Source: Neelides folsomi (lineage: Eukaryota; Arthropoda; Collembola; Neelipleona; Neelidae). Taken from it: DNA of 64,000 bases. Every line of letters starts with the position of its first letter. The first letter of the stretch is position 1. The DNA lies in the NCBI GenBank assembly GCA_034687125.1, contig JAQGBZ010000008.1, forward strand, positions 62,001 through 126,000, read 5' to 3'. The position numbers were made by a program, and so were the translations under genes. This document shows positions 8,819 to 50,000 of this stretch, piece by piece. The notes beneath the pieces were generated by a model. The model was given only the letters and a program-made list of their open reading frames with translations, made no database searches and was not told the DNA's origin.

Positions 8819-11800
8819 GTAAATAATTTATTTACCCATTATTTAAACTCAAATCAAAATATTAAATATTTGAGAGTTGTAGAGATTAAACATGCACAGG
8901 AATTTAAATTAAACCGACAAAGTCTTTACCTTTTATTTATTCATAATATTTCTTACCTTTGGTTTTATTTGAATGAAACTTTCTTCCTATTGATTTTTAA
9001 ATTCCTTTTCTCCTCGCCAATTTAGAGTTGATTAATTCCTAGCAATGTTACTTAAGAGTTACTTAATATATCTAAATATTTAAATTCTCCTACAGAGTTG
9101 ATGAAAAGTTAATGTAAGTCATAAAGATTTGAAAATATAATTGAACCAATGAATTCACAGAAATGGATCTGACTTAACAAGAAAATTGGCAATTAGGAGA
9201 AAAATTGGATTATCTTTCCTTTTATCCAATAACATAAATTCTTTTAAAATAAGTAAGGAAGGAAAACCAAAACAGTCGGCGTGCATAAAGAGATTAATGA
9301 CAAAACAGTTTTAGCTATTAACAAAAACGAAAATCTGAACAAATCTCTGCAAACTTTAATAGGATAAAAATATTTTATCGTGAACTCATTTTACCTGGTA
9401 AGTACCCCATTTTAATCCCAGACGATTTATAATTCGATCCTTAACCACCGTTATGTGATCCAGCAATATTGATAATCCTTATAAGAATAATAAAATAAAA
9501 AGTCAAAATCTATAACGACATAGCTTCAGATTTAAGAAATGAACAAAATAAATATTTTACTTCAAGTCACGCCACATTCGTTCAATGAAATTCGATTACG
9601 TTTCATTTTATGCCATGTTTGTATTTTTTGTATTAATTTATAAGACGTTGATTTTAATGAAAATATATTCATAAATTTTTATTATATAATTTATATTGGA
9701 AAATTATTGTTAGAAATATATACTTAATAATAGTAATAATGTTTAATTACACAGTACCCAGTTATAATTGATGGTTTATGAAGAATAGATTTATTAAATT
9801 CAAATGTGTTTACGATGAGAGCAATTAAAAGGTAAAAGCACAAAAACGAATAGGTATTCAATAATTTGAATTAATATATTGTATCATTTTCAGTTGTAAA
9901 AGCTTTTGGTGAAAGTAGGGGAAGATTATCCCGCTCTTTTGTCTTTGTCCTTCTTCACTTCCTTTGTTCCTTTCTTCTTCATTTCAGCCCCACGGCACTT
10001 TCACTCCACACGTCCTCTTTTCATTTTCACTTTTTTAAATTAATTTTTCGAACTTAATTATAAAACAGTTAAATGACTTGTCCTTTCCTTTGCAGTTAAG
10101 AAAGCGCGTTTTGTCGGAGCTCAAGGTAAGAGTTTAATCAACTTTTCCATTATTTCTTTTACTCCAATTAATTACACAGTCAATTTTCCCATTTGTTTGT
10201 TTTTAAAAAAAATGGCTAAATAAGGATCTACTAAATATTAAAGCAACATGCGATTAATCAATCAGTTTCATTTTCATTATAAAATGTATTTTCAATTTAA
10301 TATTTTTATAAAATTTTTATAAAATCTAACTTCATTTAATATTATTAATGGAGATTTAGGAATCAATAGTTTGCAAAACATTTGAAATAATGATATTTGT
10401 ATTTGTAATTCATGAATTATTATTTTTTTTTAAAGCAGCCGTTCAATGGAATTCTTACGTAACTCTCAAAGTTCAACATGTCAAATCAACAACGGTCACA
10501 GTTAAAGGTGCCACTCCGAGTTGGGAACAAGACTTTCTATTGTAAGTTTACCAGACCCGGGCGTTTTGGTTCCGATCAAGACCGGAATGTGCAAACGGAA
10601 CGGAACGGAACCGGAATTCCGATTCCGTTCCGATGGCCTTGACTTTTCCTAATTCCGTTCCGTTCCGATTCCGGTGGCCTCCACTTTTTCAAATTCCGTT
10701 CCGTTCCGATTCCGGTAGCCTTCACTTTTCGGAATTCCGTTCCGATTCCGGTGGCCTTTACTTTTACAAATTCCGTTCCGTTTCGATTCCGGTGGCCCTT
10801 CACTTTTCCAAATTCCGTTCCGGAAGTTCCGATTCCGTTCCGGCGCCCAGGTCTGAAGTTTACCATTTATTGCAATCATCAATCAAACAATATTTTGTGA
10901 AATCCCCATTTATTTATCGTCACATTATTAACAACTAGCGGAGATATGGCGTCAATTGATAAAGTAGAATTAAATTGATTATTAGGCAGAAATTTTTCGA
11001 TAGTTCCTGTTTTGCAAACTCAATCCATAAATTCTTATATTAAATGGAATGTGAGGGCTTTATTAATTGATCGGTTAGCGATTAGGTCGGGGAGCCTTAT
11101 TTACATTATACCATCATTTCTAATAATTGGATCCATGTCGAAATTTGAACACCTGTTACTGCATCTGTTTCTTACCTTTTTATTCACTCGAGATTCGTTT
11201 TTACCAGCTAATGACCCAGAAATCCTCCCTTCAAACAATAATAAATCCTCGTAAAAATTGACTCACTCTACAAACAAACCTTTGCAATTAACACTTTCTT
11301 GTTCCCACCTAAACATTTAAGCTGAAAAAATTATTTGAAAAGTGCCTTTATATTTGATATGCTGTTATTTATACATATTTATGTAATACGCAATTTTATT
11401 TCTCGCAATTCGATCCTTACCGTACAAATACTCTGAATTTGAAAAAAATATGCTGATCTTGAACTTCATCGCTATTTATCGATTTTAATGGTTTTATCTA
11501 ATTTTCTTCTTACATAATTCCTACCAAACATAACTGTCTATATATTATCACATACTTATTACCAGTTAATGGTCTTCAAACATTTTCTAGTCATCTCACC
11601 TCTCAAATACCAAATAGAAATGAGGAATCGGAGTAGGACGTGTGAGTGGAATAAAAAATCTTTCGAATCAGGTCATGCACATTTATCTAGAAGAGCATTT
11701 ATCCCATAAAAGATAGGAAAACTGAATTTATACCTAATGACCTTCCAAATAGTACTCTCTATAACATCCCAATTTCACCGAACTACTCTCATCAAAAGGA

Positions 11801-26800: not shown

Positions 26801-29800
26801 TACAGATACACATACGATGACTACAATTACGATGACGGGACGTGGGACCAGACCAATACAACTACCACATTAACTAATAAACGCACCAATGAGCTCCCTC
26901 AGCCTAAAACGGTTCCGACGACGTCTTCTCTCAAAAGCACGCCAGCTGTCATCCCTTCGAAAGCTCCAACTTCCACCGCCACGACCTCCGCGGCGGCTCC
27001 GACATATCCTAATATCCTCGTTACGAAACACGACGAGAAGTCGAAGTACGAAGCGAATTACTATGGTCAACCTACGTCAAAAGGGAATCAAGTCGTTCCT
27101 ACAAGTTCCTCAATTCAGCCCAAGACATCCTCCGCGGCTGTTGTTTCAAGTTCAACTAGTGGATATTCAGACCCGGCGTATCAAGATCCATCCACGTCCT
27201 ACGAAAATCAAACGGGGTATGAAGATTGGAGTTATCAAGGATATTACGACGAGAGCGGGAATTGGATTCAATACGAACAAACTGGCTACTATGACGAGGC
27301 CGGAAACTGGATTGACACAACTGGTCAATATTATGATTACGAGACGGGGATGTATTACTCGGCCGAGGACTACTATGGCGAATACTCATATGATGAAAAG
27401 GGAAATGTCGTCTATGCTAATTATTCAACAGCGGCAACGACTACAACAACAATCACGTCAACAACAACGGCTGCCTCTACCGTCCCAGCTGTCTCAACAA
27501 CTCACACGCCTAAAACTCTCCCACCAATTCCGACAAGTGCGACAAAGACGTCGCCGTCAAAGACAGCAAATGGCAAACCGCTCACGTCCCAATCTAGTGT
27601 CGAATACAATTATGCATATCAAAGTTCCGAAAATCTTCATACTGCCCCTGGAGAGAAAGGAACAGCTAATGGGGCAAATTCATTGAGCAGAAGAGCCAGT
27701 TTCCGTCGTCAGGCTTCCACAAGAGACTATGGAATCGAAGGGCCTCCGGTCACATTCCCTTCTAGCAAATCATCCGTTGTCACTTCGACGCCCGCAACTT
27801 CCATTTCCAAAGGGATCGAACCGCTTCCTTCCATTAGCAATAAGACTCAAGAGTACCCCGTAGACGAGACCGGATATTCTTATGATGAACAAATGGCTTG
27901 GGATGGACAATACGGCGACAGCCAATACTATGAGCAATATGATGAACATGGAAATCTTATTGAAGATATGTCCGCTGGTCCCGTCCATATGGATTCTATT
28001 GAGTCGAACACATCTGATACCATTAGGTAATTTCAAAAAATAATACAATAAATGATATTTAACCATATACATACGGAGTGGCCCAGGGATCGATAGGTTT
28101 AAACATATGCAATTGTTATATAAATATATATGTTTAAACCTATCGATCACTGGGCCACCCTGTACATACATATTATACTAACAATATTATGGTATATTAT
28201 TGTAAATTACTTAATATCTACTTTTATAAAATATTAAGCTTTGAATTTGTTCGGGCTTTTCTCTCTTACTACAACAGGGTGGTCTGAATAAAAATACCAT
28301 CCTGACCGGAATCTTTCCGAGGTCAAAATGACGGGCGAATTTTTTTAATTAACCCAATCGTCCTCGAGAAATCTGCGACAATGTGGGTTTTGGCAAGGAG
28401 GAGTTTCACAAACTTTTGAAATATTTTGTAAAAGTTGGCGAGTTTGAGTTTGAGACAAACGTTTCAATAGGAACGAATTTAGAATATTTTCGACTTTTCG
28501 AACTAAGAGTCCATTTTAATTGATCACTAAATAGATTCATTTCTTTTCATGTTGTATTAGAGAAATCGGAGTCCGTTTCGCCGTTCCGGCTCAGGTAATG
28601 CCAGATTCGTGTAGCAAATTCCCAACTCTGGGTCATAGTCATGATTTTGAAAGGTGTCGATGGGTTAATTAAAAAATTCTCCCATCATTTAAATAATGGA
28701 AGGATTCCGTATTGTTGTAATAAAAGCTAAAAGTCGACGGATTACGAAACTGATACTTTATAAAGATAGACCAGCAATGGGCCCGTTTCCCTACGAGTTC
28801 GTAACAATCCGTTGACCCGAAATGTGTCTGAGGGTCATAGTATGATTTTAAAATGTGTCCGGGGGCCAGATATCGAACCCACGGTTTGTACTATTTTGTA
28901 CCCTTAAATAGTTTTTAATGGATAGAAGTTACAAACCAGTCGGGAGACTGGCCGATTGCTGGTAGATAATATAAGATTATTATTAGATAAATCTGTTCAA
29001 TTAAATTTTATGTAATTGCTATAATAGAATATAAACAATATTTTTAAAACCCAAACAGTGGAATAAGTTATTTGGGTAATAAAATGTTTAAATGTAAATG
29101 AAATACAAGGTGGAAATATGTTGAACTTATTTCATGGTTTGGGTTTTGAAAATGGGGAAGTCAAAGTGAGAATGTTGCCAATAAATTTTCCTCATGAATT
29201 ATTCCTGATTGAACAGAGATCCTGAAGCCCAAGACAAATTCGAGGCTCAATATTGGCAGAAACAGCGAGAGCGAATCGCGAAACAGTCCTCCATCACTGT
29301 CCAAGATACCTACAGCTACGATCCCTACTCTGGAGGCAACATTTTGGAACCAATGGACAAACCTCCGACAGTAGTAATAACCAACGGGACCAAGAAGGAA
29401 ATTTCAATTGAGCCGAGGAAGGGAAGCGTTGATGACTGGGCGTCAAGTTCCCGGAACGTCTCGCTCGATCAAGACGGCTACTACGATGACCGCGACCGCC
29501 TAGGCATTAAAAAAGACATGTTGAGCTTCAGAGAGGAGAGCATGGAACGCACAATAGGGGATGATGAATATCTGGAAGATGAAGACGAAATTCCTCAACG
29601 GGGCCGGACTGATTCTGTTGACTCCGCTAACCTCGAACCAACTTCCCCGCCACGATCGCCTAAAAATCTCATATCGGAAATTAAAGATGACAAAGTAATG
29701 AATGATTGAATTGATATTGCTTCTAAAATATTACCAATATGAAATTATAAACAAAATTTTAAACTCCTTTGTTGATAATCCATTTATTACACTGTTCAAT

Positions 29801-30106
29801 TCTTTTAAATCCATTTGTATGTAACTCTATACTTAAATACTATAAAAATTATTTAAAATTTTACTTATAACTTAGCTTTGAAAACTCTATTTAATTCTAT
29901 TAAAATGTTATATAATCGCTTTTTAGATGATTGATGGATTAGAAGAACGTAAATCGTCACTTGAAGTGCCTGTAAAGGAAGGAAAGAAAACGGTGTCATT
30001 TGACGAAGAGCCTCCGAAAGTGAAGATCATTGAGCGAGTGACGAAAGGGATGACGCCGAGGGAGAAATGGCTCTGGTCCATGAACAGGATCTGCGCTCAA
30101 CTCGCG
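8797..30106 (+). CDS. unc-13: unc-13 / Munc13 synaptic priming protein, long C2A-containing isoform, N-terminal 1064 residues
   Basis: UNC-13 proteins prime synaptic vesicles at the active zone by opening syntaxin and templating SNARE assembly. Fourteen exons join with matching phases: 8797-8818, 10096-10125, 10439-10541, 14957-15074, 15477-15600, 17520-17639, 22132-22492, 22688-22735, 24263-24369, 24547-24745, 26607-26687, 26806-28026, 29217-29694, 29927-30106. Residues 1-133 match the Munc13 C2A domain almost motif for motif ([44 protein letters not shown]). Residues 173-1004 are a low-complexity Tyr/Ser/Thr/Gln-rich linker with a YYDE-GNW repeat. Residues 1047-1064 match the calmodulin-binding helix. 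The start is MSLL, as in vertebrate Munc13-1. C1, C2B, MUN and C2C lie downstream of the window. Family assignment is very secure; exact use of small or symmetric exons is not. Confidence 0.93.
8819..10095 (+). other. Intron 1
   Basis: 1277 bases of AT-rich intron (GTAAAT...TTTGCAG). I see no gene, repeat family or strong secondary structure in it. Confidence 0.85.
10096..10125 (+). CDS. unc-13: unc-13 exon 2, 30-nt exon of C2A
   Basis: Encodes [10 protein letters not shown], the first beta strand of C2A. The acceptor is CCTTTGCAG and the donor CAAG|GTAAGA. It is symmetric (phase 1 to phase 1), so skipping would keep frame but remove a core strand. It is too short to be found by open-frame length alone. 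Confidence 0.92.
10126..10438 (+). other. Intron 2 with tandem NAGNAG acceptor
   Basis: 313 AT-rich bases ending in a T-run followed by AAGCAG, two overlapping acceptors three bases apart (10433-10438). Use of the first would add one alanine to C2A. Nothing else is visible. Confidence 0.8.
10439..10541 (+). CDS. unc-13: unc-13 exon 3 (C2A core)
   Basis: Residues 18-52 include [13 protein letters not shown] and PSWEQDF, the most diagnostic Munc13 C2A strands. Lys33 aligns with Munc13-1 Lys32, a residue known to matter for C2A homodimerisation. The donor TT|GTAAGT overlaps the target duplication of a transposon that begins 10 bases into the intron. Confidence 0.95.
10552..10855. mobile_element. 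hAT-like MITE with internal minisatellite, inserted at the exon 3 splice donor
   Basis: The termini CAGACCCGGGCG and (reverse complement) CAGACCTGGGCG form an 11/12 inverted repeat. An 8-bp duplication AAGTTTAC flanks it exactly (10544-10551 and 10856-10863). Both features are typical of hAT transposons. The 304-bp body has no transposase. It holds a short CGGAAC/GTTCCG palindrome and five tandem units of about 41 bp. The left duplication supplies intron positions +3 to +10, so the 5' splice site GTAAGT survived the insertion. Confidence 0.85.
10621..10830 (+). repeat. Minisatellite inside the hAT-like MITE, five units of about 41 bp
   Basis: Each unit pairs a GTTCCGATTCCGG block with a GGCCTTCACTTTT block. 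The second block recurs at about 10635, 10677, 10718, 10753 and 10794, giving spacings of 42, 41, 35 and 41. The open frames across the array on both strands are translations of this repeat, not genes. Confidence 0.85.
14957..15074 (+). CDS. unc-13: unc-13 exon 4 (C2A)
   Basis: Residues 52-91, including [16 protein letters not shown], which matches Munc13-1 [15 protein letters not shown] nearly residue for residue. The acceptor is TTCTCTTTCAG and the donor GCC|GTAAGT. It ends in phase 0. Confidence 0.96.
15075..15476 (+). other. Intron 4, weak acceptor region
   Basis: 402 bases. The pyrimidine tract before exon 5 is poor, and three in-frame AGs crowd the junction (ending at 15461, 15473 and 15476). 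No other feature is seen. Confidence 0.75.
15477..15600 (+). CDS. unc-13: unc-13 exon 5 (end of C2A)
   Basis: Residues 92-133: [14 protein letters not shown], then GTKTPTGH and [10 protein letters not shown], matching Munc13-1 EGPGEWLTLDSQVI and LLDAHFELPF. The donor is TTTTG|GTAAGA. The start at GAA 15477 is chosen by alignment; AGs at 15461 or 15473 would add DVLEQ or one Q in frame. Stops upstream prevent a longer exon. Confidence 0.92.
15601..17519 (+). other. Intron 5
   Basis: 1.9 kb of AT-rich intron. A minor GC-richer stretch near 16460-16580 contains a small TACCGC/GCGGTA inverted repeat. No gene is visible. Confidence 0.85.
17520..17639 (+). CDS. unc-13: unc-13 exon 6 (helical tail of C2A)
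   Basis: Residues 133-172, a charged helix with [19 protein letters not shown]. It corresponds to the AKKLEQLNAMRDQDEY segment that follows C2A in Munc13-1. The acceptor has a long T-rich tract ending CTAG; the donor is AT|GTAAGA. It is symmetric, phase 1 to phase 1. Confidence 0.93.
17640..22131 (+). other. Intron 6
   Basis: 4.5 kb of AT-rich intron. It contains an 80-bp hairpin MITE at 19395-19474 and a purine-rich GA tract near 18258-18280. Nothing coding is supported. Confidence 0.85.
19395..19474. mobile_element. 80-bp hairpin MITE, mariner-like ends
   Basis: TACAGAGTGGGCCATAAGTA on the left is the inverted complement of the right end, with one mismatch. The arms run about 30 bp with a loop of about 16 bases, and TA lies at each edge. 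The GTGGGCCATAAGTA end is of the mariner type. It has no coding capacity. Confidence 0.75.
22132..22492 (+). CDS. unc-13: unc-13 exon 7 (linker)
   Basis: Residues 173-293. It opens [19 protein letters not shown], the acidic Ser/Tyr patch that follows the C2A tail in Munc13 proteins (Munc13-1 has DRDSDYRSE at this place). It then becomes Gln/Tyr/Asn-rich and disordered, with a HGHHGH cluster. The acceptor is TTTTTTGCAG and the donor AA|GTAAGA. Confidence 0.93.
22688..22735 (+). CDS. unc-13: unc-13 exon 8, 48-nt exon, possible cassette
   Basis: Encodes 16 residues ([15 protein letters not shown] and a shared Gly). The acceptor ATTACAG and donor GG|GTAAAA are both valid. It enters and leaves in phase 2, so inclusion or skipping both keep frame. 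It was identified by splice-phase continuity with exons 7 and 9, not by homology. Confidence 0.78.
23153..23362 (-). other. Exon-like antisense segment in intron 8
   Basis: On the minus strand a strong acceptor (TTTCTCTTTTCCCAG) is followed at once by 69 open codons and a TGA. The frame begins [20 protein letters not shown] and ends FNILEEG. The composition looks coding, but I recognise no family, see no upstream donor exon and find no clear polyadenylation signal. It could be the last exon of a nested gene, a gene fragment, or chance. Confidence 0.25.
23823..24008 (+). other. Candidate in-frame cassette exon in intron 8
   Basis: A 186-nt segment bounded by AG (23821-23822) and GTGAGC (24009-24014) is open for 62 codons. 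It enters and leaves in phase 2, matching exons 8 and 9. It includes [15 protein letters not shown]. The pyrimidine tract is weak and the residues do not resemble the surrounding linker, so it may be a pseudo-exon. Confidence 0.25.
24263..24369 (+). CDS. unc-13: unc-13 exon 9 (linker)
   Basis: Residues 309-344, [20 protein letters not shown] and onward, Tyr/Asp-rich. The acceptor is TTTTTATTTCCAG and the donor CTAA|GTAAGA. The exon itself begins GTATGG, so the acceptor is immediately followed by a donor-like sequence. Confidence 0.9.
24547..24745 (+). CDS. unc-13: unc-13 exon 10 (linker)
   Basis: Residues 345-411, hydrophilic, with [13 protein letters not shown] and many Tyr, Asn and Gln residues. 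The acceptor is CCAATTTTCAG and the donor GG|GTAATC. It was identified by frame and phase continuity. Confidence 0.9.
24746..26606 (+). other. Intron 10
   Basis: 1.9 kb of AT-rich intron, nothing recognisable. Confidence 0.85.
26607..26687 (+). CDS. unc-13: unc-13 exon 11, 81-nt symmetric exon
   Basis: Encodes 27 residues ([17 protein letters not shown] and onward), in the same Tyr/Glu/Thr style as its neighbours. The acceptor is TATTATTGCAG and the donor GA|GTGAGT. Phase 2 to phase 2, so it can be skipped without a frame change. Confidence 0.88.
   Translation, partial: LRGKRSLLLGRIHCNGSNCFQHKIQY
26806..28026 (+). CDS. unc-13: unc-13 exon 12, large linker exon with YYDE-GNW repeats
   Basis: Residues 438-845, intrinsically disordered. 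A Thr/Ser/Pro/Ala-rich block is followed by a Tyr/Asp-rich repeat. [10 protein letters not shown] (583-592) and [10 protein letters not shown] (598-607) are 15 residues apart. Looser copies start near 611 and 629, and a distant one ([10 protein letters not shown]) near 816. A basic Ser/Arg patch ([13 protein letters not shown]) could be a kinase target. The exon begins inside a longer open frame; the true 5' edge is the TTACAG acceptor at 26801-26805 and the donor is AG|GTAATT. A long frame in another register is a shadow. Confidence 0.95.
27239..27420 (+). repeat. unc-13: Coding repeat, YYDE-GNW units in unc-13
   Basis: Four adjacent, increasingly diverged units start at 27239, 27284, 27323 and 27377, encoding [30 protein letters not shown] and [10 protein letters not shown]. 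The unit is tyrosine-rich with an aromatic W in the best copies, an architecture common in condensate-forming linkers. Confidence 0.8.
28072..28164. mobile_element. 93-bp hairpin MITE, mariner-like ends
   Basis: The left arm from TACGGAGTGGCCCAG through GTTTAAACATAT pairs with the right arm ATATGTTTAAAC through CTGGGCCACCCTGTA. Arms are about 36 bp with TA at each edge, starting 45 bases after the exon 12 donor. The outer bases resemble those of the hairpin at 19395, but the inner arms differ, so they are separate families or subfamilies. Confidence 0.75.
28270..28719. mobile_element. Degenerate inverted-repeat DNA element, about 450 bp
   Basis: TACAACA at 28270 matches TGTTGTA ending at 28719. 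Inside, long diverged arms share CGGAATC.TTCC and AATTTTTTTAATTAACCCA (about 28317-28366 against 28655-28708). A unique CAGGGTGGTCTGAATAAAAA stretch interrupts the left arm only. There is no transposase. Confidence 0.45.
28770..28963. mobile_element. Short hAT-like MITE
   Basis: ACCAGCAATGGGCCCGTTTC on the left matches the reverse complement of the right end (ACCAGCAATCGGCCAGTCTC) at most positions. The body is about 190 bp without coding. CAGCAAT ends are hAT-like. I could not find a clean 8-bp duplication, so the family call is tentative. Confidence 0.5.
29217..29694 (+). CDS. unc-13: unc-13 exon 13 (linker, acidic)
   Basis: Residues 845-1004. It opens with a charged segment ([15 protein letters not shown]) and continues with an acidic stretch ([10 protein letters not shown]) and a proline motif EPTSPPRSP. 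The acceptor is TGAACAG at 29210-29216; the donor AAA|GTAATG ends in phase 0. It is disordered, with no globular domain. Confidence 0.93.
29927..30106 (+). CDS. unc-13: unc-13 exon 14 (calmodulin-binding helix)
   Basis: Residues 1005-1064, phase 0 at both ends. The end reads [18 protein letters not shown] and aligns with the Munc13-1 calmodulin site (NWLRAFNKVRMQLQ). Trp1052, Met1056 and Ile1059 occupy the 1-5-8 anchor positions. In Munc13 this segment couples residual Ca2+ to priming. The donor is GCG|GTAAGT; the next exon should begin the region before C1 and lies outside the window. Confidence 0.93.
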
Positions 30107-33100
30107 GTAAGTTTCTCTTTCCTATTTCTCTCATTAGGGGTAAATCAATCGAATTACCCGAGACATAACTTCATTTTTCTTCTTACATTCACTCGACGGT
30201 CTCAATATTCTTTTTTTCCTCACAACTTTTCATTTTATTGAGACGTCTGGCAAACTCATGGGAAGCGTCTTTTCACTTTTATCATGGCAAATCTACTTTC
30301 TTGAACTTTTTCTAGCGCTCTGGTGAGATTCCAGAACTTGAACTTTCACATCTTATGAGCAAAGTATTTGGAAAATATAATATTTCAAGTATACGGAGTA
30401 TAAAAAATTCTGTTAACTTCTGATATATATTAAATTAATATGGCAATTAATTCAATGTCTATATTATTAAAAGAGTATAAAATGGGATAACATCGGGATA
30501 TGTTATTAATTAGTCAAAGAATATGCTATATAGGATATTAATTTAGAATAGCATTACAAATTGAGTTAGCAAACTGAGCTCCATTTTCAAAAGGAGTTTT
30601 TGGGTCGTTGGGAGGATTAAGGGTTTGAGTGGTTGGATGAGGCGTATGAAGATCCCATTTTGTCTTCCATGCCTCCGCCCTTGTAACCGGTAATGAGTGG
30701 AGACAAAAAGGAGAAACGGATGGGAAATCCTGTCAAGTGAAACGGAAAAGAGGGAAAGTTAAAGTACTTCACTTGGGAAAGACGCGGATGTCGAGGGAAT
30801 AGTGATAATGTCATGTTGAGTCGGGAGCCGAACTCTCCCATTAAATTACACCTCCTTTATCATCTTCATTTCCTCCCCCGCCCATCGAATCTCTACGAAT
30901 ATCAATAAATCTCGCTGCATTCACACGTTATATGACTAGACCGCCGTATCTAAATGATAAAAATATCGATTTTCATTAATTTTTTATTCACTTTTTATTA
31001 TGTAACTATCCAAGTAATTTTTAATTTTTCTTTTTTTCTGTATAATTTCCTTCTAACTCTTACGTCGATGAATATTACGAATAGTCTTTTAAAAATTCCA
31101 ATATGATTTTGTTATTAGAATAGTTGTACACTCGTGAGTATTTATACTATTCTGTAAGGTTTATCCATACATCACTTAAAATGCCAACTTCTAATTAATG
31201 AGTCGATTCATCTTCAAATCTTTTTCCCTTTCTTCACTTTACATCCTCTTTTACAATGGATTTCCATCAAGGACTAATCCCCGATCGTTCATTGACCCCT
31301 TACATAATTTTTTATAAAGTATTTCAAAATGAGAGTCTCATATATCTCAGTATGGTACATTGAACGCTAAGTTTTATGTCAAAATATTGTAAAGAGTGGA
31401 ATGAAGAGGAAATTCTAATTCCTCCGTTTTTATTCTCTCCATCTCTCCATCAATCAAATGAATATAAGGAAATTCATCCAAGCTTCTGCTCCATCCGGGA
31501 AGCAGCATGGTTGAAAATTGAGTTTGAATCAATCCTGCGGGTATTATTCTCCATGTATTAAGAGAATTGCTGGATCAAAGTTTCCGAATCTGGATCTGAC
31601 TATTCTATCCACTTTTGGATATAGTAAAAGTAGCCGCCCCAGTCTTTCATTTATTAACAATTTCCATTGAGTTTCGAATCCGAATGTTGGATAATACTTT
31701 CAATAGGAATGGCAATATTTTCAGACATGTGCTTATCAAAGTAACTTTCAATATGGAATTGTAGCCTACCACTGCTCGTATTTCTATACACGCACATACC
31801 TAGTGTATCTTATACACAATACCTACATCGTATATTTCAACCATGGTTGAATGTGTTTAGGTACTATACGTACATTTTCCTACAAAGGGGCAGAAAGAAC
31901 GCTGTTAGAAATTTTGTTTGTTATCCTGCCTCCAAAGCGAATTTCACTCGTCTGGAAATAAGGGTACCCCTATTGACTACTAAACCATCATTCCTCTTCC
32001 CCGCAGTTGTTCTCAGTTCCCAATTTATTGTATTAAATTATTCCGCTTATATTCCGCCAACTTAAATATGTACATTTTTCCTCACCCTCCACCGAACAAA
32101 TGTTTTTGCAACACGTGAAACTGAAAGTGCCCATACATCCCGTCTCACTCTTTCAAACTACTGAGGGGACGCACATAGATATTTTTTCATACAATCCTTT
32201 CTTAAAATTTTGAAGGTCTGGAAGTTATGTTGATCTCATTGCATCGCAAAATGGCTTCCTTTTTTATCAACCCTCCTTCACTTGAGTTTGTATTGGGGGA
32301 CTCTCGAGGGAGGGAATTCCCATTTTCTTAATGGGCATAAGATGTTTTGGACGGGAAATTGAGGTGGAATTGAGAATGATGAGATCTATTGCTGTAAAGG
32401 GATTTACTAGGAAGAGTTGAAGAGAGTCTGGCTACTTAATCTGCTGGCTGAGTGAAATGTGTAGTTTTGGCTCAGCTTCCCTTGAAGATGACCTCGATGG
32501 CCTCGGCGGGACGACTGTGGTAATAATGGGAAATGAGGATATAAGTAGAATGGGATATATCATCATCATGAGAGACGGTCAGAGGGATTTGATTCGACTA
32601 GAATGTAACTTCTGAACGTGTGTTAGTTAGAAACTCCCATTTACCCACTTTCCCCTATGGGGGAGAAATAAAACCCATTCCCTGTCACGACTGTCTCAAC
32701 ACTCCCACAATGACCTCAACAATATCTCCGCACTTTCATTCCTTCATCGCACTTTCACTGACCTAACTTATTCGACAACATCTCTTAAACTTTTTAAGTT
32801 GGATTTCCACATTTTCCACCAAAAAACTATTAAAATTAAATCCAGTTTTTAATTACATGTAATATATAATTATTGTAATTGTCAAATCATAATTTTTTAT
32901 AAATATTAGAATATATTTATTTATTTATTATTAAATATTAAAAATATAGGAAGGTAATAAATAAAGACAAATAAGGAAAAAAGTTAATTGCAAGTGGGTT
33001 TAGCTTGTCAATATTTACACAGCAGTTGAACGGAATGATTATCAAGGTTAAACTAAGGTTTTTAAAAGAAACAACCTCGAGAAGCCACATTAATTTATAT

Positions 33101-34293: not shown

Positions 34294-36010
34294 TTGGTTA
34301 AGGGAGAAAATGGGAGAGACACCCACAGATTGGGTCGAAGGAGAAGAATTTGAGATCGACGGGGAAGGGTTTGAAGAAAATTACCGACTCGACTACGCCC
34401 TACTTTTCCCTCTTAAACTCGTCCTTTTCCCTGGAAGGACTTTTTCTCCATCTTCCATCTTATTCGACCCGACCATCTCCAATTCCTCATCTACGAATAT
34501 CAATCCTCGTCTTGGCGGTCGCACATCGTCAAGACTAATTCTCTCAAAAGTTCTTGAACTCGACGAATCGACCTCACCCAATCCATCCTTATTAAGATCG
34601 ACCGAGTTGAGAAAAATGGAGGAAAATGCTTTAGCTTTGAAGAGGCGGAATTTGCTCCGACGACGTAGATCAAGCTCTTTGCCTGACATTGATCGGCTGG
34701 GACTTTCAATGCCTTCGGGGCCGTCGGGAGAAATGAATATTATCGGGGAAAGCGGAGAAAACGATGGTAGCTTTTACAAAACAATGGAGGATCGCGGAAG
34801 TTCCTATTCTATGAAGAGCGATGGAGGGCTTCATTCCAAGATAGTGCCAAAAATCAACAGGGCTTCTTCAGAGGTCTTGAGATGTAAAAGAGGGACAGCT
34901 GTTGAGTTGATTCAAACTCCAGGATCTGCTGGGAGCATCGGTGACCTCATGCGAATCATGCGGTTTGGTTCAAATGCGAATTCTCCAACGACATCGGAAC
35001 TTCTGGCTGCCGCCGTGCCACTGGAAACTGTCACAACCCGACCAGTTCGCCCTTTCTCTTCCGCCTCTGACTCGGAGACGTATCAATTAGGAATTGTGCA
35101 GCCAACTGATTACAACTCCGACTACTCTTATGACCACACTCGGAGTCAAAAAGAGAAATTGTCTCTCCATCCACTTCTTTCAATTCCAAGACTCAATGTG
35201 TCCTCAGCAGATGAGTTGGAATTTGCTAAAATCCAAGTCGAGGAAAAGGAAGGGAGAAACACCAGAGTTGAGCAACGATCATCTGCGGCTCTTTTTGCAA
35301 TGGGGGACTCAATTGATTTATCCGATGGTTGTCCTTCTCCCGAGTTGAATAACAGATTGTGGGTTGTGAGTGGGAATGAAATTAAAAAGAGGGATGATTC
35401 ATTCCATTACCCATCTTCACCCATTTTAACCAGCCCCTGTCAACCGCCGAGGGTTTCCCTCACCTCCGTTCGCGGCCCATTAACTCACCAAGTGGCTTCA
35501 ATTGATGAATGTTTTACATCAGACAATTACTCAATGACAACCACACATTCGTTGTCCTCATCGGAAACTTCGCTCAGCACGGCATCCTTCCAAACCCCAA
35601 GTAGTCGGATGCCATCAAGGGAATCCTCACTACTCAGCTTTGTCTCTCCAGCGTCGAGTTGTTGCGGAGTGCCGGTGTCAAAGAAAGGCTTCCAAACACC
35701 CACAAGCCCACCATATATTGGGATAGGGAAGGAAGTGAAGGTCGCGATGGAAGTGAAGAAGAAGGCGGGATGGCGAGGTGCACAGAGCTTCGATGAGAGC
35801 GTGAGGCGGGAGCGGATAAGGAAGAACGGCATTATAGCTGAGAATATGAGTGAGATTAAAGGGAGGTGGAGTAGCAGCATTGTGGAGCATGAGAGCCAGA
35901 TGGTTCCAAATCCCCATCGCCGCCTTGTCCCCACGGTCGAACGGGCCAAGAGGCTCTCGAGATTAATTCAGCAGAGACAGCACAAACAGCTTCAATTCTC
36001 CCTAAATTTG
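34294..36010 (+). CDS. unc-13: Alternative N-terminal exon, probably of a shorter unc-13 isoform (ATG 34310, 567 codons)
   Basis: A long pyrimidine tract ending CAATCAG (AG 34292-34293) gives the exon start. The first in-frame ATG is 34310, after an in-frame TAA at 34205. The donor TTTG|GTGAGT at 36010/36011 ends in phase 0, like exon 14, so both could feed the same downstream C1 exons. The product is Ser/Thr/Pro-rich and disordered, acidic at 10-24, strongly basic at 111-120 (KRRNLLRRRR), and ends in a basic amphipathic helix (VERAKRLSRLIQQRQHKQLQ, from about 543). Fly, worm and mammalian unc-13 genes use alternative N-termini. I recognise no close homologue of this sequence, so the isoform assignment rests on position, phase and strand; a separate gene is the alternative. 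Confidence 0.7.
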
Positions 36011-39000
36011 GTGAGTTTGGGGAAAAGGAGTTTCTCAATGCTTTGCCACTCCTACCTTTTTAAACCCTTAATTTATTGCCTCAATTCATTTCCTTCCTCT
36101 TGAAACATCCTCGGAGCTTTTGGCTCAACTTTGTCCTGATGGTTATGTTTAATGTGCATTCTAATTTAACCTTTAATTTAAATAAAATTAATTTCTGGAT
36201 TTGGATATAAAATAAATTCTTATCTATCTTATAAATTACATGCAGTTAATTTTCAACATTTAAATAAGATAAAACAATTTAATGAAAACTTTGAATGCAC
36301 GCACTATAAAGAGATTTTGAAAATAAAATTATACATAATTGAGAGGATTAAATTCGTGGGGAGGTGGGTAGGTAAGTATTTATTGTAAGTTGGAAGAGTT
36401 AATTCTTCAGGCGTTCTTTAGTGGCTTTCTCCCCCTTTCATCTTCAACTGCTCGTTAAGGGAAGGTGCATTTGTCATGCAGGGAAATATTGTAAATATTT
36501 AATGTGATCAAACTTTCAAGGGAAAATGTTCAGGCTTGGGGGTTGAGGTAATCGAAATTTGTGAGAGTAATCCGCTTATAAATTCAAGAGGAGCTGAAAG
36601 TTAAAACTGTGAGAGTATTTCAATTACATCTGCTCCGTGGACTTTTAAATTTAGTTCCGCTCCTTTTAAAACCTTTTAAGGTTAAACTGGGAATGAAGGG
36701 TTTAAAAGATTATGAATATTCATGGCGGAACTCTTATAAATTTTAATGGACATCACATTTTACCTTTAAAGCACATTAGTGATATGACTAACGAGCATAC
36801 TTCAAGCTTTAGGAACTCTTACCTAACTCCACAATATTATAATATCCATAACCTACACTTATTAAAAATATTTATATTTACAAAGGACCATGTTCAAACC
36901 AATTATAATTAGACCAAATGTAGCATTTTCCCAACAGTATTTGTCAATTAACCCATACAATTCATTAAAGATTTTAAGTTGTGGAATTGAAACTTAACTA
37001 CAATTTCTTTTTAAAGGTCCATTACGAATTTTATCAGGGTGCGAAAGAATGAAGGGGAGGAAAACAGCCTTTTATAGCTCTTGTAATTCAGTTTAATAGA
37101 CACATTTTTCCTCCTCGATTACCCAAACCTTACAGTCGAGCCCTTCGAATTCAAGCGACTTCATTGTCACTTTAAACCTTAACCTCGTAGTATTTATACG
37201 CAAATTGCCATTTAAGATCAAAAGGTTGAGTCTCTCCTTCTATGACTAGCTCGTGTAAGTACGAGTAGTATCAGTATTAAAGCTTGCCTTTATAACCCCA
37301 TCATTCCTTTCTGCCTCACGTCTCTCCACTTTTGGGTTACTAGAGGTGATCTAACTAATTTGCGTAGAAATGGCGATTCTATGTGTAAGTTGATCAAGAT
37401 CTCGAAAGAGATAGTGACATCTCAAACTCAAAATACGAATAAAATTTTGCGATAGCACAATGAATAATTGGCTGATTCTCTTTTGTAGCTTTTGGTTCTT
37501 TTACGGCACATGACTTAACTTTTGTACATACAAATATTTTTGTTGAACTTATTTGGGACAAGAAATGGATTTCCCTTTGGAATTAATTAATTCCAGAAAA
37601 TAGAATTCTTACCGGTTTTTAAAGAGTGTAGGCATTAAAAGGTCTAAAGTAAATAATAATATACCCTAGTGTATAAATTCCGTTACGATCTTTTTATCTT
37701 GTAACGGGATAGGAAAAGACGTGAAGAACTTTTTAATAATTTCAAAGTTTTGTAGGAGGGATAAAAGTTTTTTTAGATCCTATTGTAAAAGTTTTTAAGA
37801 ATTAATGAGAAGCTGCTTTTACAATTTAAAAGCCTCAGGAATATTTAATCCTCGCTTAAAACATGAAACTTTTATAAATAAGGATTATATCGAGGTTGAG
37901 CAAAGTTGAAACTTCCCATATTTCTCTTTTTATTTTACAATCCAAATTATCTTTATTACTTAATCTAGATTTATATTTATAATATTTAAATCATCACATG
38001 AGATGAGAGAAGTTGACATAACCAATATGAATTATTTTAAATAGTATGAAATTAAGTGATGAAAAATTTTATGTATGTATTTTTTATTATTTTTATTTAA
38101 ATTGTATTTAAACGTTTAAATTCGCTGCTGTATTGTTCATCAAAATATTTTAGAACACTATGTTTTATAAATTTAGGGTTGGGCGTGTGGTATGAATGAG
38201 AATTTGTGAGAGGGTTGATGGGAAATGGTGAACTTGGGGCTTTATTGAGAGATTTACTTCTTTAACGCTCATGGCCATGGGACATCTTATGAAATGGGAA
38301 AGAGCAATGAAAAGTGGGAAAATGGTCATAAACTATTCCATTTATTTCTCCATTTGAAATTCAATGGTAAATTCGTGGTTTGCAGACTTTCATTTTTATA
38401 TCACGTATTTTCTTCCACCGTCTTGCGTCCAATACTAAAAAAGAGCATAAATTGAGCAGTTTCAAAATATATGATTATCTCTTTATTTATTGTCTCGTTT
38501 TACTTCCAAAGGCAAATACTTGTAATAAATGTCTTTAACAGAATTATCGCTAATTTACATGCAGTTTTACTTATTCGTATTATTAACTACATACAAATTA
38601 GAATGTAATTCGGAAATTGGAATGAATATTTTATGTGCATGTTAATTACTTACATTTAGTATTTATATTAAAACACAGAGAAGATAAAATATGTTCCATA
38701 TGATAAGAAAATTCCAATTTATTGTGTTGTTAGATTTAATTCTAAAATTTGCACCATTCGTTAATTACTTCTAACATGAACATTTGGCTCTCAATGTTTT
38801 GTTATTTTATTATCATACATAAGTATGATGTATATTGTAGTTTGTACATAAGATATCCCAAAGAAAGAGCATAATAGTACATTGAAGAATGAATAAATTG
38901 TAAAAATGAAGGAGTAGATAAGGTTAACTTATACCTTACGGTGCAAATGAATCTCTTCATAATTGTAAGCCCCTAAATTGCTACTTTAACAATTTCCTAC

Positions 39001-41993
39001 TTAAATACATTAGTTTGACGAGCCCTTTCTCATAATTCATTTCTAAGGATAAAGGAGAGGAAATGAAAGGGAAGTTGAAAGCAGTGGTTATTATTTCCTC
39101 TCCATCTCATTTACCTCGAAGGCAAAGACGACGTCTCAAGTTCTCCACTTTCATCTTCCTCAACAATTCTGGGGGAAAGGAACCCACTCAACTCTTTCCA
39201 AATAATGGGAACTGAAGTGGGAAGCTCAGTTAACAGCAAAGCTGCTACATTTCTTAATTTCCAACCCTATTCGTCCTTCGATTGCTCTTTGATATTGCAA
39301 AAACTCGGTTTTCTCTTGCTCTTGTATTGCATGGCTTTGGGTTCCTGGGGAAGTCCCAAAGCATTATTAGAGACACGGCTGGACATTGTTTCACCCGAGA
39401 GTGAAAGGTTGCTCGAGGCATATCGTCTCTTTTCAACCTAATTATTTCTTCCTTCACCACTTGGCTTATTTTTTCTTTCTCGTCCATGGGAGGATTGGAG
39501 AGCGGAGTGAGGGTAATGGGAAATAAAGCTGGTCGTTGAAGGAAAAGTCGGCCGACCGAGATCGATACGAATGGGAATAAAATGTGAAAGTTCAAGTTCC
39601 GTTCCAAATAACTCTTCACGTTCCTCATTCATCTTATGATGAGGTTAATAAGACTTCCAAGAATAAATTTCAGGAAGGAATTCATATTCAATTTTCCATC
39701 AGAAATGATTTTACCTTTTATGCATTAACGAGCGCATAACTTCATTAAAATCATATTGTCGTCTTTTGAAATTAAGTAAATGGAAAAATATTTCTTAATA
39801 AAATCATATTGGTTTGGGGTCAATAAAATACTGCTACTTTTAGAATCTCGACTAAATAAAAGTATGTATTACATTCAAACTTTCCATATAAAAAGTTTTT
39901 AATTGATATATTTTCTTTTGCAGGTAAGTACAATTTTCATAATTGGGCGATCGGTTGTCTCATTAACTACTTGGATCTTCTTGCCTCAATACTTCACAAG
40001 TAAGCAAATTGCATCTGCACGGACATTTTCATGAAGGTGCATAAAATAAAATTACAATTCTCATCAATCTAAATCATTTTCACCAAAGGCTCACAATGAT
40101 GTCACAAGGAAAATCTAAATACACTTTCCTAATTTTGAATTGTAATAATATTCTTATACGAGTATTTTAATTTTTCGTTCGTCAAAATATATAATTATAG
40201 TTATAAATACATGGGGAATATTATGCGTAGAAAATTATGTACATAATCTGTAATACATACATACTACTGGTTTAATAATACTTTGTTTTCCTTTCGCTCA
40301 ATTCGCATAAACTCCTTAATCTCTCTTTTACTGGCTTGGATTGGATTATATTGGAACTAATAGGCTTATTCGGTATTAAGTCAGTTAAGTATAACGGTAA
40401 ACAAAAGTCAGTGACAATGAGCATATAGTGTTTTAACGGAATCGGTCGAGATTACCTCATAATCATAATGCAGCAATAAAATTTTTACTTAAAATCCCCT
40501 TATGACATGACCTATGTAACTGTATGCATGAGTTGTGCAAATAATTATTTTTAATCCTATTTTCTTATTTGGTAAAGTTTGGAAAATAAATAGTATACCA
40601 ACGTTAGTATACCCATTGTTCTCATATTACATCGTAAAGAAAGCTTTAAAGTTTTAGGATTTTCGGAAATATTAAAATACGCGATGCATAGCTCAGAACT
40701 CTTTTAAGTGACTAAAAAGAGTTAATATTTTTATTGGTTCTTATTTTCAAAATGCCTTTAAATTTGGCGAATTTTTATCACTTAAGTTTCAGAATTTAAT
40801 GGTTATTCAATAATACATTATAATGTAACGTGTTGTCAAATCATTGAAAATTTTCGTATAAAAAGCATTACCTATATTTGGGTACATTTTTAAATACAGA
40901 ATAAAAATATGTATATAGTAACGAGCTAGCCTTCATTATGTATACGAGTATTTATATTATAACATTATATTATAAGCATAGGAAATGTTGATGATGACAC
41001 GTTTCAACTATTGTGGTATTGCAGATTAGATACGTTGGGTGGAGATGAGTTTTCCTAACAAGGACTCCCAAATTGCGGTCCCACGTGCTAGATCCTCTCC
41101 GTAGGGAAATATGGATTTTCATCTACTATACATCTATCTTTATCTTCCTCTCTTCATTTTCTACTTTTGTGGAGAGAAAGGAAATATTTCTTTATTCCGA
41201 ACATCACTTTTCATCCTTCACTCACCTCCTTTTTACCATGTGTGGAAGATTCTGGGTTCTTTTTCATAAACTCTTAACAAACGAGCGTCTCGGTTAAAGT
41301 TCGTGATAATCCACACTTTTACAAAAAAGAATCCTAATCATTTTTTAAACGATCCTCCTGGGAGTTTAAACCTCTATTAATGAAATTTTACAAATCCTTA
41401 ACCCTAAAGCCACTTTAATTACAAATCAAATTAATTTAATTTCAAAATAAATAAGTTGTAAATGGAAGTTAAGTAAATCAATGTTTTCTTTACATAACTC
41501 TTATTCTAACCTTTGCAAACAATGAAGTTGACAAACATCAAAGTCGAGTTTTTATTATTTTTATTATCCATAATACTATCCCAAGTTTTCATTTTCTATA
41601 AATAAAAACTTGACAATTTAATATCATGGTGGCAAATCTGTTGCTTTCGGTCTCTTCTTCTCTACTCTTTCTCCGACAACCATCTTGAGAAAATATCAAA
41701 TGAGGGGCATGGTGTTCATTTGACTTGTGATGGTTGATAGCATGAAAGGAGGAATAAATTTAATATGAGAAACTTGACTTTGATAAATCGAAAATTCTCT
41801 TTCTTTCCTCCTCCGCATCTTTCAAAAGCTGGACCCAATTGATTTCTAAAGTCTCTTCCTTTTGACCTCATACAAACTTCCAAGCGTGTGATAAACTATG
41901 TGCTTTCTTCAAACGATCTTCCATTTTCTTCTGGTGATATTTTAAGGCTATCTGAAGTGCAATGTAATCTTCACTGCATCTCGACCCCGAAAG
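36011..41993 (+). other. Long intron, first part
   Basis: 6 kb downstream of the alternative exon. The only strong feature is a recursive splice site at 39923/39924. Open frames are short and on both strands, with no domain recognised. Confidence 0.7.
39905..39931 (+). other. Recursive splice site (zero-length exon)
   Basis: A pyrimidine-rich run TTTTCTTTTG leads to CAG at 39921-39923, which directly abuts GTAAGTA at 39924-39930. This is the acceptor-donor fusion that defines ratchet points in long fly introns. It lies 3.9 kb into an intron of at least 28 kb. After use as an acceptor it would regenerate a perfect 5' splice site. Function is inferred from sequence. Confidence 0.7.
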
Positions 41994-47000: not shown

Positions 47001-50000
47001 AGCTCGGTCAGGAGAAATTAAGCTTTTATAGTAAAGAGAGGAGTTATATAGAATGCTTTCGATTTCCCCGTTTCAATTTCACGAGGATTAATACTTATTA
47101 GGAGAATGCTTTTATTGAGCTTCATTTCTCATATATATCCCATCAAGTTTATGCTAATGAATGAGATTTGATATTAAGAATGGGTTAAATTACGAGTCTT
47201 TGGTTATTGCAAAATAAAAAAATTGTTAAAATCCAATACTATTATAAAATTCTATTTTAAATACAAGACAATTTTGTATCAATTCCAAAGTTGATGGATA
47301 CTTATCGTGGACAGTTGTATTTTATAAATAGTAATGTACTCGTATGTATCTACCTACATATATTTATGATTTGGAATGTAAAGGGATGTCTAATCTCTCT
47401 TGTTTTCTTCTTTCCTTCTCTCAATGGAACATATTCCCTTGTTCCCCATTACCTTCCTTACATTCCCTAAATTGCCTTATTATTATCCTCCGACCATTTA
47501 TGAAATCTGAGCTCTTTTACATCCCCTAATCTCTCCTTATTGTACATATACGTACGCACATGGATTCTCGCAATGTATTTGGTATGAAATTAAGTTTCCA
47601 ACTATTATTTATTGCTCCTTTTAATACTATACGACCTCTAAATAAATCCTTCTATTGTGCCATTGTCATCTCCTTTATAATTTTTGACCGTTAGTTGTGC
47701 TTATTGCAGGCAAACTTACTGTTAAAGGTTATGTTTAGCTTAGTTACGACACGAATCAAGTATTTAAATTCATAATAGCGAGAATTACTATATGTAAGGT
47801 ACCATTACGTTATTATCATAAGAATAAGAAATTAGCATTTGTCAACTACACACGTGCGTTTGAGCGATGGATTTAAGATCCCTCGATAAAACTTTCTTCC
47901 CTTCTTCCCACCATTCCTCTCACGGAGGAGAAAAGGAGTTCGTGAGGGAAAGGAACCTCTCAGGTGTTGTGGAATAAAAAGAAGGAGTTAAAGGATAAGA
48001 ATCTAAATGACCGACACATAAAGAAAAGACCCCCTTAGCTCGAAACCTCCAATTAACCACGAGGGGATTTCTTAAGAGAGGAAATGATACTTCATTCATT
48101 CAACAACCAATTTGTACATTAGAATCCGCTATTGTCAATTCATAATCGAGTTTTTTCCATTCTCCATCATCTCGCGGTTTGCAATGTGTATAAATCTCCC
48201 TTTTGCGGTTCACTATTGGCTCTTCACAGTGGGGATGGCGAGCACCCTGCTGTGACATAAGAGAAATTTTGACAATTTCCCACATTCCGACTCCCACTTT
48301 CTTCCTGATGAATGCGATTCACGGGGAGACGAAAGGGAATTTTGCTTCTTGTTTTCTATGCTGCCCGTGGGTCTTGGAGTGCAATGGGGTATTTTTAAAA
48401 TTCGCAACTTTTTTCATTAAAATACTTTTACTTTTTTCCCTAATGTGTCTAGTATCTATTGAATTTCACCTACATTGCCTACATATAAGTAAGTTCAAGT
48501 AGGGTGAATACAAAGGTGGTAATAGGAGAATCAATGAAAGGTAAGGATGAGGACGAGTCATGTTGGAGCTGGGAAATGCATTTGACTGTCCTTGTTGTTG
48601 GGAAGAGGTGGTATGTAGGTGAGGAGGTGACGTCAAAGGCGTGCCTCACTTTCCCACACTTGGGGATGAGTTTGGGCTATATTCGTATTAGTAGTATTTG
48701 TAAAGTGTGGAGGGGGATGCAGCCACGGAGGATTTTGAGAGAGTAAAATTTGTATGAGGAGAGACGGAGGGGGAGTCTCCCTCTACTTTCACCGCAGTTT
48801 CCCCTCCAACGTGCGAGAGTATAGGGAAAGCAGCGGAACTCGGGAAGTCTACCGGACTTTCACAGGGTGGAGAAACTCCCTGGCCTGAATCAATAGTGTG
48901 GTACACGTTGCGCCGTCTAGCACAGCGCAGACCCAGGGAATTTCGTTCGCCGACTACGCCGACCTCGGCAGTTGAAAGTGAGACGAGCGGGTCGGCAGGA
49001 GATTTCCTGATCTCCGAGAGAAAGGCAGAGAAAGGACTTTACCAGTTTCCCCAACTAACCCCACATCCAAGCGCGTATCATCATCTGGTCGTTTAATGAA
49101 CTCCCGGTCCATCCCTCGCCAGCCTGCCCCTCAAAACTCACAACTTTGACTCCTTCAGCCCCCAAGTTGAAGTGAAATTATCCCGAACTTACCCAAACAT
49201 TTCCTCTTCTGCAACCCCACTGAGTTGAAGGGGAATATGCAAATTCACACTAATTGAATCTGAGAATCATTGCCATTTCACTTGAATTTCTAATGAAGCT
49301 TGATCGAATCTTCGCTATAGGTTTTTCCAACTAATCCGTTCCTTCGACCCCAAACCACATCATTTTCTCTCGCCCAAATTGAGTTTGTTTTCTTTTTGGC
49401 ACCAATCGCGTGCTCCAATGTGTGCAACGAAATGATTTGAATCTTGGAAGTGGAGCAATAAGCACCCAGAACTCCCACAATACCTTTTACAATCATAATG
49501 AAGTTATGTAATTAGTAATAAAAAAATCTCACTTCACAAGATGAATATTAAGTGACAGTCGTGGAAATTGGCTCACGAGCCATCCCACTTAATAAAGTGA
49601 ATTATGTAATAGGGGAAGATGAAAGGGAGGAGAGATTCCTTGATATACACATCTAAATGTTTAATATGAATGAGAAGAGCCTTTGATATCTTTGTACCTA
49701 AAAATTACATACGCCGTGTATACCAGAATAAGCCTTACCGTACACATGAAAGCATTGAATGTAGCAAATCAATAGAGGAACGAAAATCGAGTGGTTACAA
49801 CCTTATTATGTATTCTCTTGAATAAAAGGGGGGAAGTCGAGGTTAAAAAACCTTCGTCTACTTATACACGCAAGTACTATGTTATGTTTCTCCTCCTTTT
49901 GATACACTGTGGGAAGTAGTGCAGTCCCCTGTCAAATAAGTGAAGTGTTTGATATACGTAATATATCTCCTCGTTGGCCCCTTTTGACGTCTCTCCTTTT

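Follow-up and report, generated by a model that had tools for sequence, protein, structure and literature searches.

Does a very long intron in a compact arthropod genome come out in one piece, or stepwise, through a site at which a splice acceptor and a splice donor meet with no exon between them? In flies, passages of one report put the share of introns over 40 kb that have a high-confidence recursive site at 63% (PMC6110457). The locus that raises the question here lies in unc-13, in a window of 64,000 nucleotides (C8:62001-126000, plus strand) whose numbering is used below unless a contig is named. We think it probable, judging from its sequence, that the junction at 39924 is a real Drosophila-type intronic ratchet point that is used in splicing, and we favour this reading because of how the site is built, how it ranks in its own intron and what is usual in long insect introns. 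The likelihoods that we attach to this and to competing readings are judgements and were not computed.

Between 39911 and 39930 on the plus strand, a pyrimidine tract and CAG run directly into GTAAGTA without an exon base between them; both this fusion and its position, noted in the preliminary description, were borne out. The sequence reads AG/GTAAGTA with the junction at 39923/39924 (a slash marks splice junctions throughout), 39924 being the first base after the AG. The junction sequence is ttgatatattttcttttgcag/GTAAGTAC, with 39924 to the right of the slash, and the wider stretch read around it is tttttaattgatatattttcttttgcag/GTAAGTACAATTTTC. Scored with general acceptor and donor matrices, the site has the following parts:

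39899-39903, plus strand: branch-point-like TTAAT, starting 25 nt before the AG/GT junction (motif match only)
39907-39923, plus strand: pyrimidine tract and acceptor tatattttcttttgcag, 11.1 bits
39924-39930, plus strand: candidate ratchet-point donor GTAAGTA, fused to the acceptor, 8.7 bits

A second branch-point-like motif, TTGAT, again a motif match only, lies at −21 from the junction. When the 501 bp around the site were searched against the animal's own genome, no other match was found, and the site consequently gives no sign of belonging to a repeat.

The host gene had been taken for unc-13, an identity confirmed by plus-strand MUN-domain exons at C8:144780-153562 (C644 has additional MUN matches) and by the protein joined across the modelled exons, which matches Munc13-1 (7t7c, E 5e-49, residues 111-200) as well as the Pfam C1 domain. 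The matched residues 111-200 fall within exons after the long intron, and the C1 exon lies at window coordinate 75450. Exon borders were read from the DNA, so that the modelled exons and their phases, given here, are predictions:

29927-30106, plus strand: unc-13 exon upstream of the 43-kb intron, ending in phase 0, donor GCG/GTAAGT at 30107
30107-64000, plus strand: window portion of the long intron, which ends at the common acceptor 73271 (C8:135271)
34310-36010, plus strand: probable alternative first coding exon of unc-13, ending in phase 0, donor TTG/GTGAGT at 36011
64167-70091, plus strand: alternative first exon of 5.9 kb, beyond the window
73271-73311, 73413-73503, 74134-74208 and 75387-75606, plus strand: common unc-13 exons, read from the DNA

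The in-frame ATG at 34310 was picked by eye, and a Pfam search of the 5.9-kb exon returned no match. Each of the three upstream exons (ends 30106, 36010 and 70091) can be joined to 73271 in phase 0, with a frame that remains open across all four common exons. On the basis of its phase, its strand and an apparent likeness to the region preceding the Munc13 C1 domain, the exon 29927-30106 is probably part of the same protein. From this exon the modelled intron measures 43,164 nt (30107-73270), and from the exon ending at 36010 it measures 37,260 nt; the earlier figure of at least 28 kb was true but small, the next common acceptor of the model, 73271, being outside the window. On the predicted exon model, the site sits in sense orientation in a long intron flanked by exons of a single gene, 9,817 nt past the exon ending at 30106 and 3,913 nt past that ending at 36010, the latter distance agreeing with the 3.9 kb given before.

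Several further features were seen along this gene and its surroundings. Past the window, a pair of exons directly ahead of the C2B region (L014:3017-3121 and L014:3913-4000, within C8:139017-140000) resemble each other at their ends, LDGTSKWSAKIAIT and LEGTSNWSCKIAIT; they are perhaps mutually exclusive, or serve as an alternative start for a short unc-13 form. Also past the window, a probable GC donor, TTATAAG/GCAAGT, was read by eye at an unc-13 exon end (L014:1859, window coordinate about 75859). Within the window, an unc-13 intron holds an inverted repeat at 28065-28171 (arms of 44 nt, 86% complementary, 19 nt spacing) that resembles a small hairpin element, and a TTCCG-rich tandem array with a 41-nt unit in 5.1 copies occupies 10617-10822.

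Does the intron hold other exons that the acceptor might serve? A crude codon score over 36011-64000, which sees coding exons only, gave no convincing exon, next to 39924 or elsewhere; the best open stretch (48758-49075) is without clear splice borders. A GC-rich block spans 48700-49230 (GC of 0.43 in 48001-50000, compared with 0.31-0.37 in the other 2-kb steps of 36001-64000) and is perhaps a promoter or an untranslated exon. The acceptor at 39924 could in principle belong to a different transcript, whether a nested RNA, a non-coding RNA or the 64167-70091 isoform (through a 5′ exon), and the presence of more promoter- or exon-like stretches in the intron, namely this block at 48.7-49.2 kb and the alternative first exon from 64167, speaks for such a use; given the outcome of the codon scan, we nonetheless hold it to be very improbable.

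The site stands out within its locus. With 19.9 bits, it ranks first among the 1,221 AGGT occurrences in C8:1-256000 (591 sense and 630 antisense), followed by runners-up at 17.1 bits on the sense and 14.6 bits on the antisense strand. Its acceptor scores above all ten scored unc-13 acceptors (−0.6 to 7.3 bits), and its donor is level with the good ones among ten unc-13 donors (1.7 to 9.1 bits). The loosest local pattern, YYYYNYAGGTRAGT, matches once on the sense and zero times on the antisense strand of C8:1-256000 (512 kb of strands), the sole match being the 39924 site; by pattern and by matrix rank alike, the earlier judgement that this is the only site with both a good tract and a perfect donor holds. 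Since the scored unc-13 acceptors have weak pyrimidine tracts, a strong tract is not a habit of unc-13, and we counted this against the ratchet reading.

Equally high scores arose in 1 of 400 simulated introns under an order-3 Markov model and in 5 of 1500, 5 of 1500 and 3 of 1000 under orders 1, 2 and 4 (14 of 4,400 when pooled over orders 1-4). The fused AG/GTAAGT thereby exceeds chance as well as the complementary strand of the same intron, where the top site reaches 9.6 bits, at a post hoc p of about 0.003—a value valid for one intron chosen beforehand, and this site was noticed afterwards. These figures bear on the possibility that an acceptor-like tract precedes GTAAGTA by accident and that 39924 goes unused. 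The scarcity of equally good simulated introns, and the fact that the single match to the loosest pattern fell within a very long intron and on its sense strand, make such an accident unlikely in our view; in its favour are the after-the-fact choice of the site and the genome-wide counts.

For these counts, the whole 75.1-Mb genome was searched on both strands, long introns being pooled with the rest, and expectations were taken from Markov models trained on C8:1-256000, with 40 kb of C15/C17 added for part of them. The strictest pattern, YYYYYYYYYNCAGGTAAGTA, was found once, with 0.35-0.6 matches expected, and YYYYYYNCAGGTAAGTA likewise once (1.5-2.6 expected); YYYYYYYYNYAGGTRAGT was found 17 times (12-20 expected), TTTNCAGGTAAGT 17 times (7-15 expected) and TTNCAGGTAAGTAT six times (1.5-3 expected). 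RP-like motifs show no clear or fly-like genome-wide excess, and at most a small one. Counts so near the Markov expectation, including that of the strict form, are what an accidental origin would lead one to find, and the missing excess was also counted against a large recursive-splicing programme in this genome. Extrapolating from the simulation rate, roughly ten equally good sites would occur by chance across the genome.

Reversed patterns were run as a control, and they exceeded the real ones for four of five patterns (0 versus 1 for YYYYYYYYYNCAGGTAAGTA, 8 versus 1 for YYYYYYNCAGGTAAGTA, 28 versus 17 for YYYYYYYYNYAGGTRAGT, 75 versus 17 for TTTNCAGGTAAGT and 12 versus 6 for TTNCAGGTAAGTAT), which at face value would be a depletion of the real motif. 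We dropped this yardstick because the reversed words of the YYYYYYYYYNCAGGTAAGTA, YYYYYYNCAGGTAAGTA and YYYYYYYYNYAGGTRAGT patterns have a higher Markov expectation (1.4-3.2, 7-13 and 34-66, versus 0, 8 and 28 found). As these expectations lie mostly above the findings, the Markov estimates are rough and could be too high for genome-wide counts. Of the 17 YYYYYYYYNYAGGTRAGT matches, the 16 others were each read at 2 kb: in six (L027, L032, L033, L034, L036 and L040), the crude codon score either extends across the junction or begins at it, so that they are likely ordinary exon ends or starts and were rejected, and ten are neither clearly exon-end nor intronic. Ordinary exon ends with pyrimidine-rich codons thus supply part of the genome-wide matches.

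Two observations concern the genome at large. Profile matches to Chitin_bind_4, an arthropod-type cuticle family, numbered 39 and favour an arthropod. Inspection by eye of the mitochondrial contig showed, between putative cox1 and cox2, a stretch resembling tRNA-Leu(UUR), at which neither Rfam nor ARAGORN (bacterial code) made a call; this gene order is typical of insects and crustaceans.

Three sites on other contigs look like ratchet points by sequence. Two of them lie 17.8 kb apart on the plus strand of C15: L047 (C15:205400-207400, near position 980) reads ctaatcaatgtttttattattttttcag/GTAAGTATATTC, with its junction at C15:206378/206379, and L029 (C15:223180-225180, near position 1005) reads tttttttctttttag/GTAAGTACC, with its junction at C15:224183/224184; the 20 kb around L029 hold no clear exons. 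The third, L048 (C2:420790-421390), reads gttgttttgttttcag/GTAAGTATGCAG and also gttttgttttcag/GTAAGTATGCAG, and GC jumps there from 0.12 to 0.41 (100 nt on each side). A Homeodomain profile search (93 matches, all 128 candidates scored) placed none at C15:206-224 kb or C2:421 kb, and none was listed there among the 150 Ig_3 matches from the best 150 of 390 candidates. A further site, L030 on C17, was dropped as a long-intron case, having coding-like segments on both sides, one of which we take to be cullin-like.

What lies immediately downstream of 39924 is, after the motif itself, the strongest point in favour of a ratchet point, namely a match to the anatomy of fly ratchet points, with their cryptic exon and its losing donor. 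Passages of one study describe the latter as having short cryptic RS-exons that are in most cases out of frame and whose donor is outcompeted by that of the ratchet point (PMC8605326). At the unc-13 site, we find:

39924-39999, plus strand: candidate cryptic RS-exon of 76 nt, whose inclusion shifts the frame and brings an early stop
40000-40006, plus strand: GTAAGCA, the candidate cryptic exon's own donor, in competition with the one at 39924, 8.0 bits

The donor at +76 is weaker than the putative ratchet donor (8.0 versus 8.7 bits), a margin that is small and comes from a general matrix. Joined between 30106 and 73271, the 76-nt exon shifts the frame and leads to a stop after 62 residues of the joined translation, 20 of them upstream of the cryptic exon. 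GC rises from 0.22 in the 100 nt before the junction to 0.39 in the 100 nt after it.

An acceptor, a 76-nt body with this rise in GC and a GTAAGC donor could also be the marks of an ordinary or alternative cassette exon at 39924-39999 that is sometimes kept, either as an expressed RS-exon or as a poison exon lowering unc-13 output, and the phase-0 frame of the exon itself is open throughout. Yet 76 nt is not a multiple of three, so that inclusion does not keep the frame and a stop soon follows, and the donor at the first base scores above the terminal one; we judge such an exon improbable.

The ratchet reading can be confronted with similar sites through the same downstream donor. Searches with TTTNCAGGTAAGT and TTNCAGGTAAGTAT gave 20 distinct sites, 14 of them with sequence (the 39924 site included; those left out are on C4, at C22:321701 and on C243, C262, C316 and C352). 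A donor at +50 to +100 is present in four of the 14—the 39924 site (+76), L047 (+87), L048 (GTGAGT at +83) and L052 (+98)—and absent from ten, among them L058, scored as a miss with only GTGAGA at +80. L029 is outside the 14, having TAG and not CAG; with only GCGAGG at +41, it would be a miss. Setting the unc-13 site aside, three of 13 similar sites have a donor 83-98 nt downstream. Only 3-5% of background CAG sites have such a donor (173/4287, 22/434 and 25/853), a frequency that speaks against mere accident at 39924, and the excess has a P of 0.0006-0.004, with donor class and range set only once the first cases were known. The same downstream-donor pattern would be expected of ordinary exons beginning with GTAAGT.

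How might the site work? As soon as polymerase is beyond 39924, splicing would join the acceptor at 39923/39924 to the donor at 30107 in the long isoform, or to that at 36011 when the alternative first exon is used; this acceptor would be recognised across the 76-nt cryptic exon at 39924-39999. This first splice would remove 9.8 or 3.9 kb and regenerate GCG/GTAAGTA or TTG/GTAAGTA, a donor expected to beat the slightly weaker one at 40000. After the acceptor at 73271 has been made, the remaining 33.3 kb would be removed, and the mRNA would keep nothing of the site. We infer this use by the spliceosome from what was observed: the motif and where it ranks, the phased gene model, the anatomy of the cryptic exon and what its inclusion does. 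Counted against the ratchet reading is the position of 39924 at 23% (or 10%) of the intron, which leaves 33 kb unbroken without a second site; passages on flies have lone ratchet points nearer the intron midpoint (PMC6110457).

If the site is used, a compact arthropod genome with few strong candidates would still ratchet a long neuronal intron, and it would offer a precise single-copy site for testing recursive splicing outside flies. Since the cryptic exon shifts the frame, a weakened ratchet donor would bring a stop into unc-13 mRNA, as for kuz and Ubx in flies, where passages of PMC8605326 describe frame-changing cryptic exons being kept when the ratchet donors are disrupted.

A broader proposal, which we consider doubtful, is that this compact 75-Mb genome holds a very small set of ratchet points, that the unc-13 site is an isoform commitment point and that the C15 pair marks a second ratcheted intron. 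The 39924 site sits behind two alternative upstream exons and ahead of a third (64167-70091). Transcripts from either upstream promoter may splice to 39924 and ratchet forward long before the acceptor at 73271 is made, and such early splicing would fix the choice of the unc-13 N-terminus co-transcriptionally; the junctions at C15:206378/206379 and C15:224183/224184 would then represent the second ratcheted intron.

With respect to known systems, the preliminary description had suggested that the site would extend stepwise intron removal to another arthropod lineage. The motif is outstanding and the anatomy fits, but the newness was overstated, for enrichment outside flies had already been reported: passages of PMC2773006 show computationally that the long introns of mosquito, bee, beetle and sea urchin are enriched for ratchet motifs, with a density in those of bee, beetle and mosquito four-fold or more over the complementary strand. 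As the phenomenon outside flies is already predicted, the find is not conceptually new; its gene and animal are without an earlier report that we found, a search of one literature collection (by title, start of abstract or passage) having returned none of recursive splicing in unc-13, in arthropods generally or in crustaceans. The predicted RP-sites of mosquito, honey bee, beetle and sea urchin resemble ours in being sequence-based fused sites on the sense strand of long invertebrate introns; according to the passages on them, those counts cover introns over 50 kb, genome-wide and against the complementary strand, whereas here one site in one 43-kb intron is concerned (PMC2773006).

Expressed RS-exons, such as the Ubx microexons m1/m2 and vertebrate RS-exons, share with the unc-13 candidate an exon that opens with a donor and has a second donor downstream; the Ubx microexons, as given in a passage of PMC8605326, differ in being 51 nt long and keeping the frame, whereas the 76-nt unc-13 exon brings a frame shift and a stop. 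Compared with the ratchet points of Drosophila, the present candidate lacks a clear genome-wide enrichment, would have a second segment of 33 kb and has a putative cryptic exon of 76 nt, against about 50 nt in a figure quoted for flies. What it shares with them (for example with those of kuz, Bx and Ten-m, as described in passages of PMC8605326 and PMC6110457) is a very long intron whose sense strand carries an acceptor joined directly to GTAAGT and, as further passages of PMC8605326 have it, a short, out-of-frame cryptic RS-exon with a weaker downstream donor; the predicted first segment of 9,817 nt is likewise near the average of 9.1 kb that passages of PMC6110457 give for fly recursive segments.
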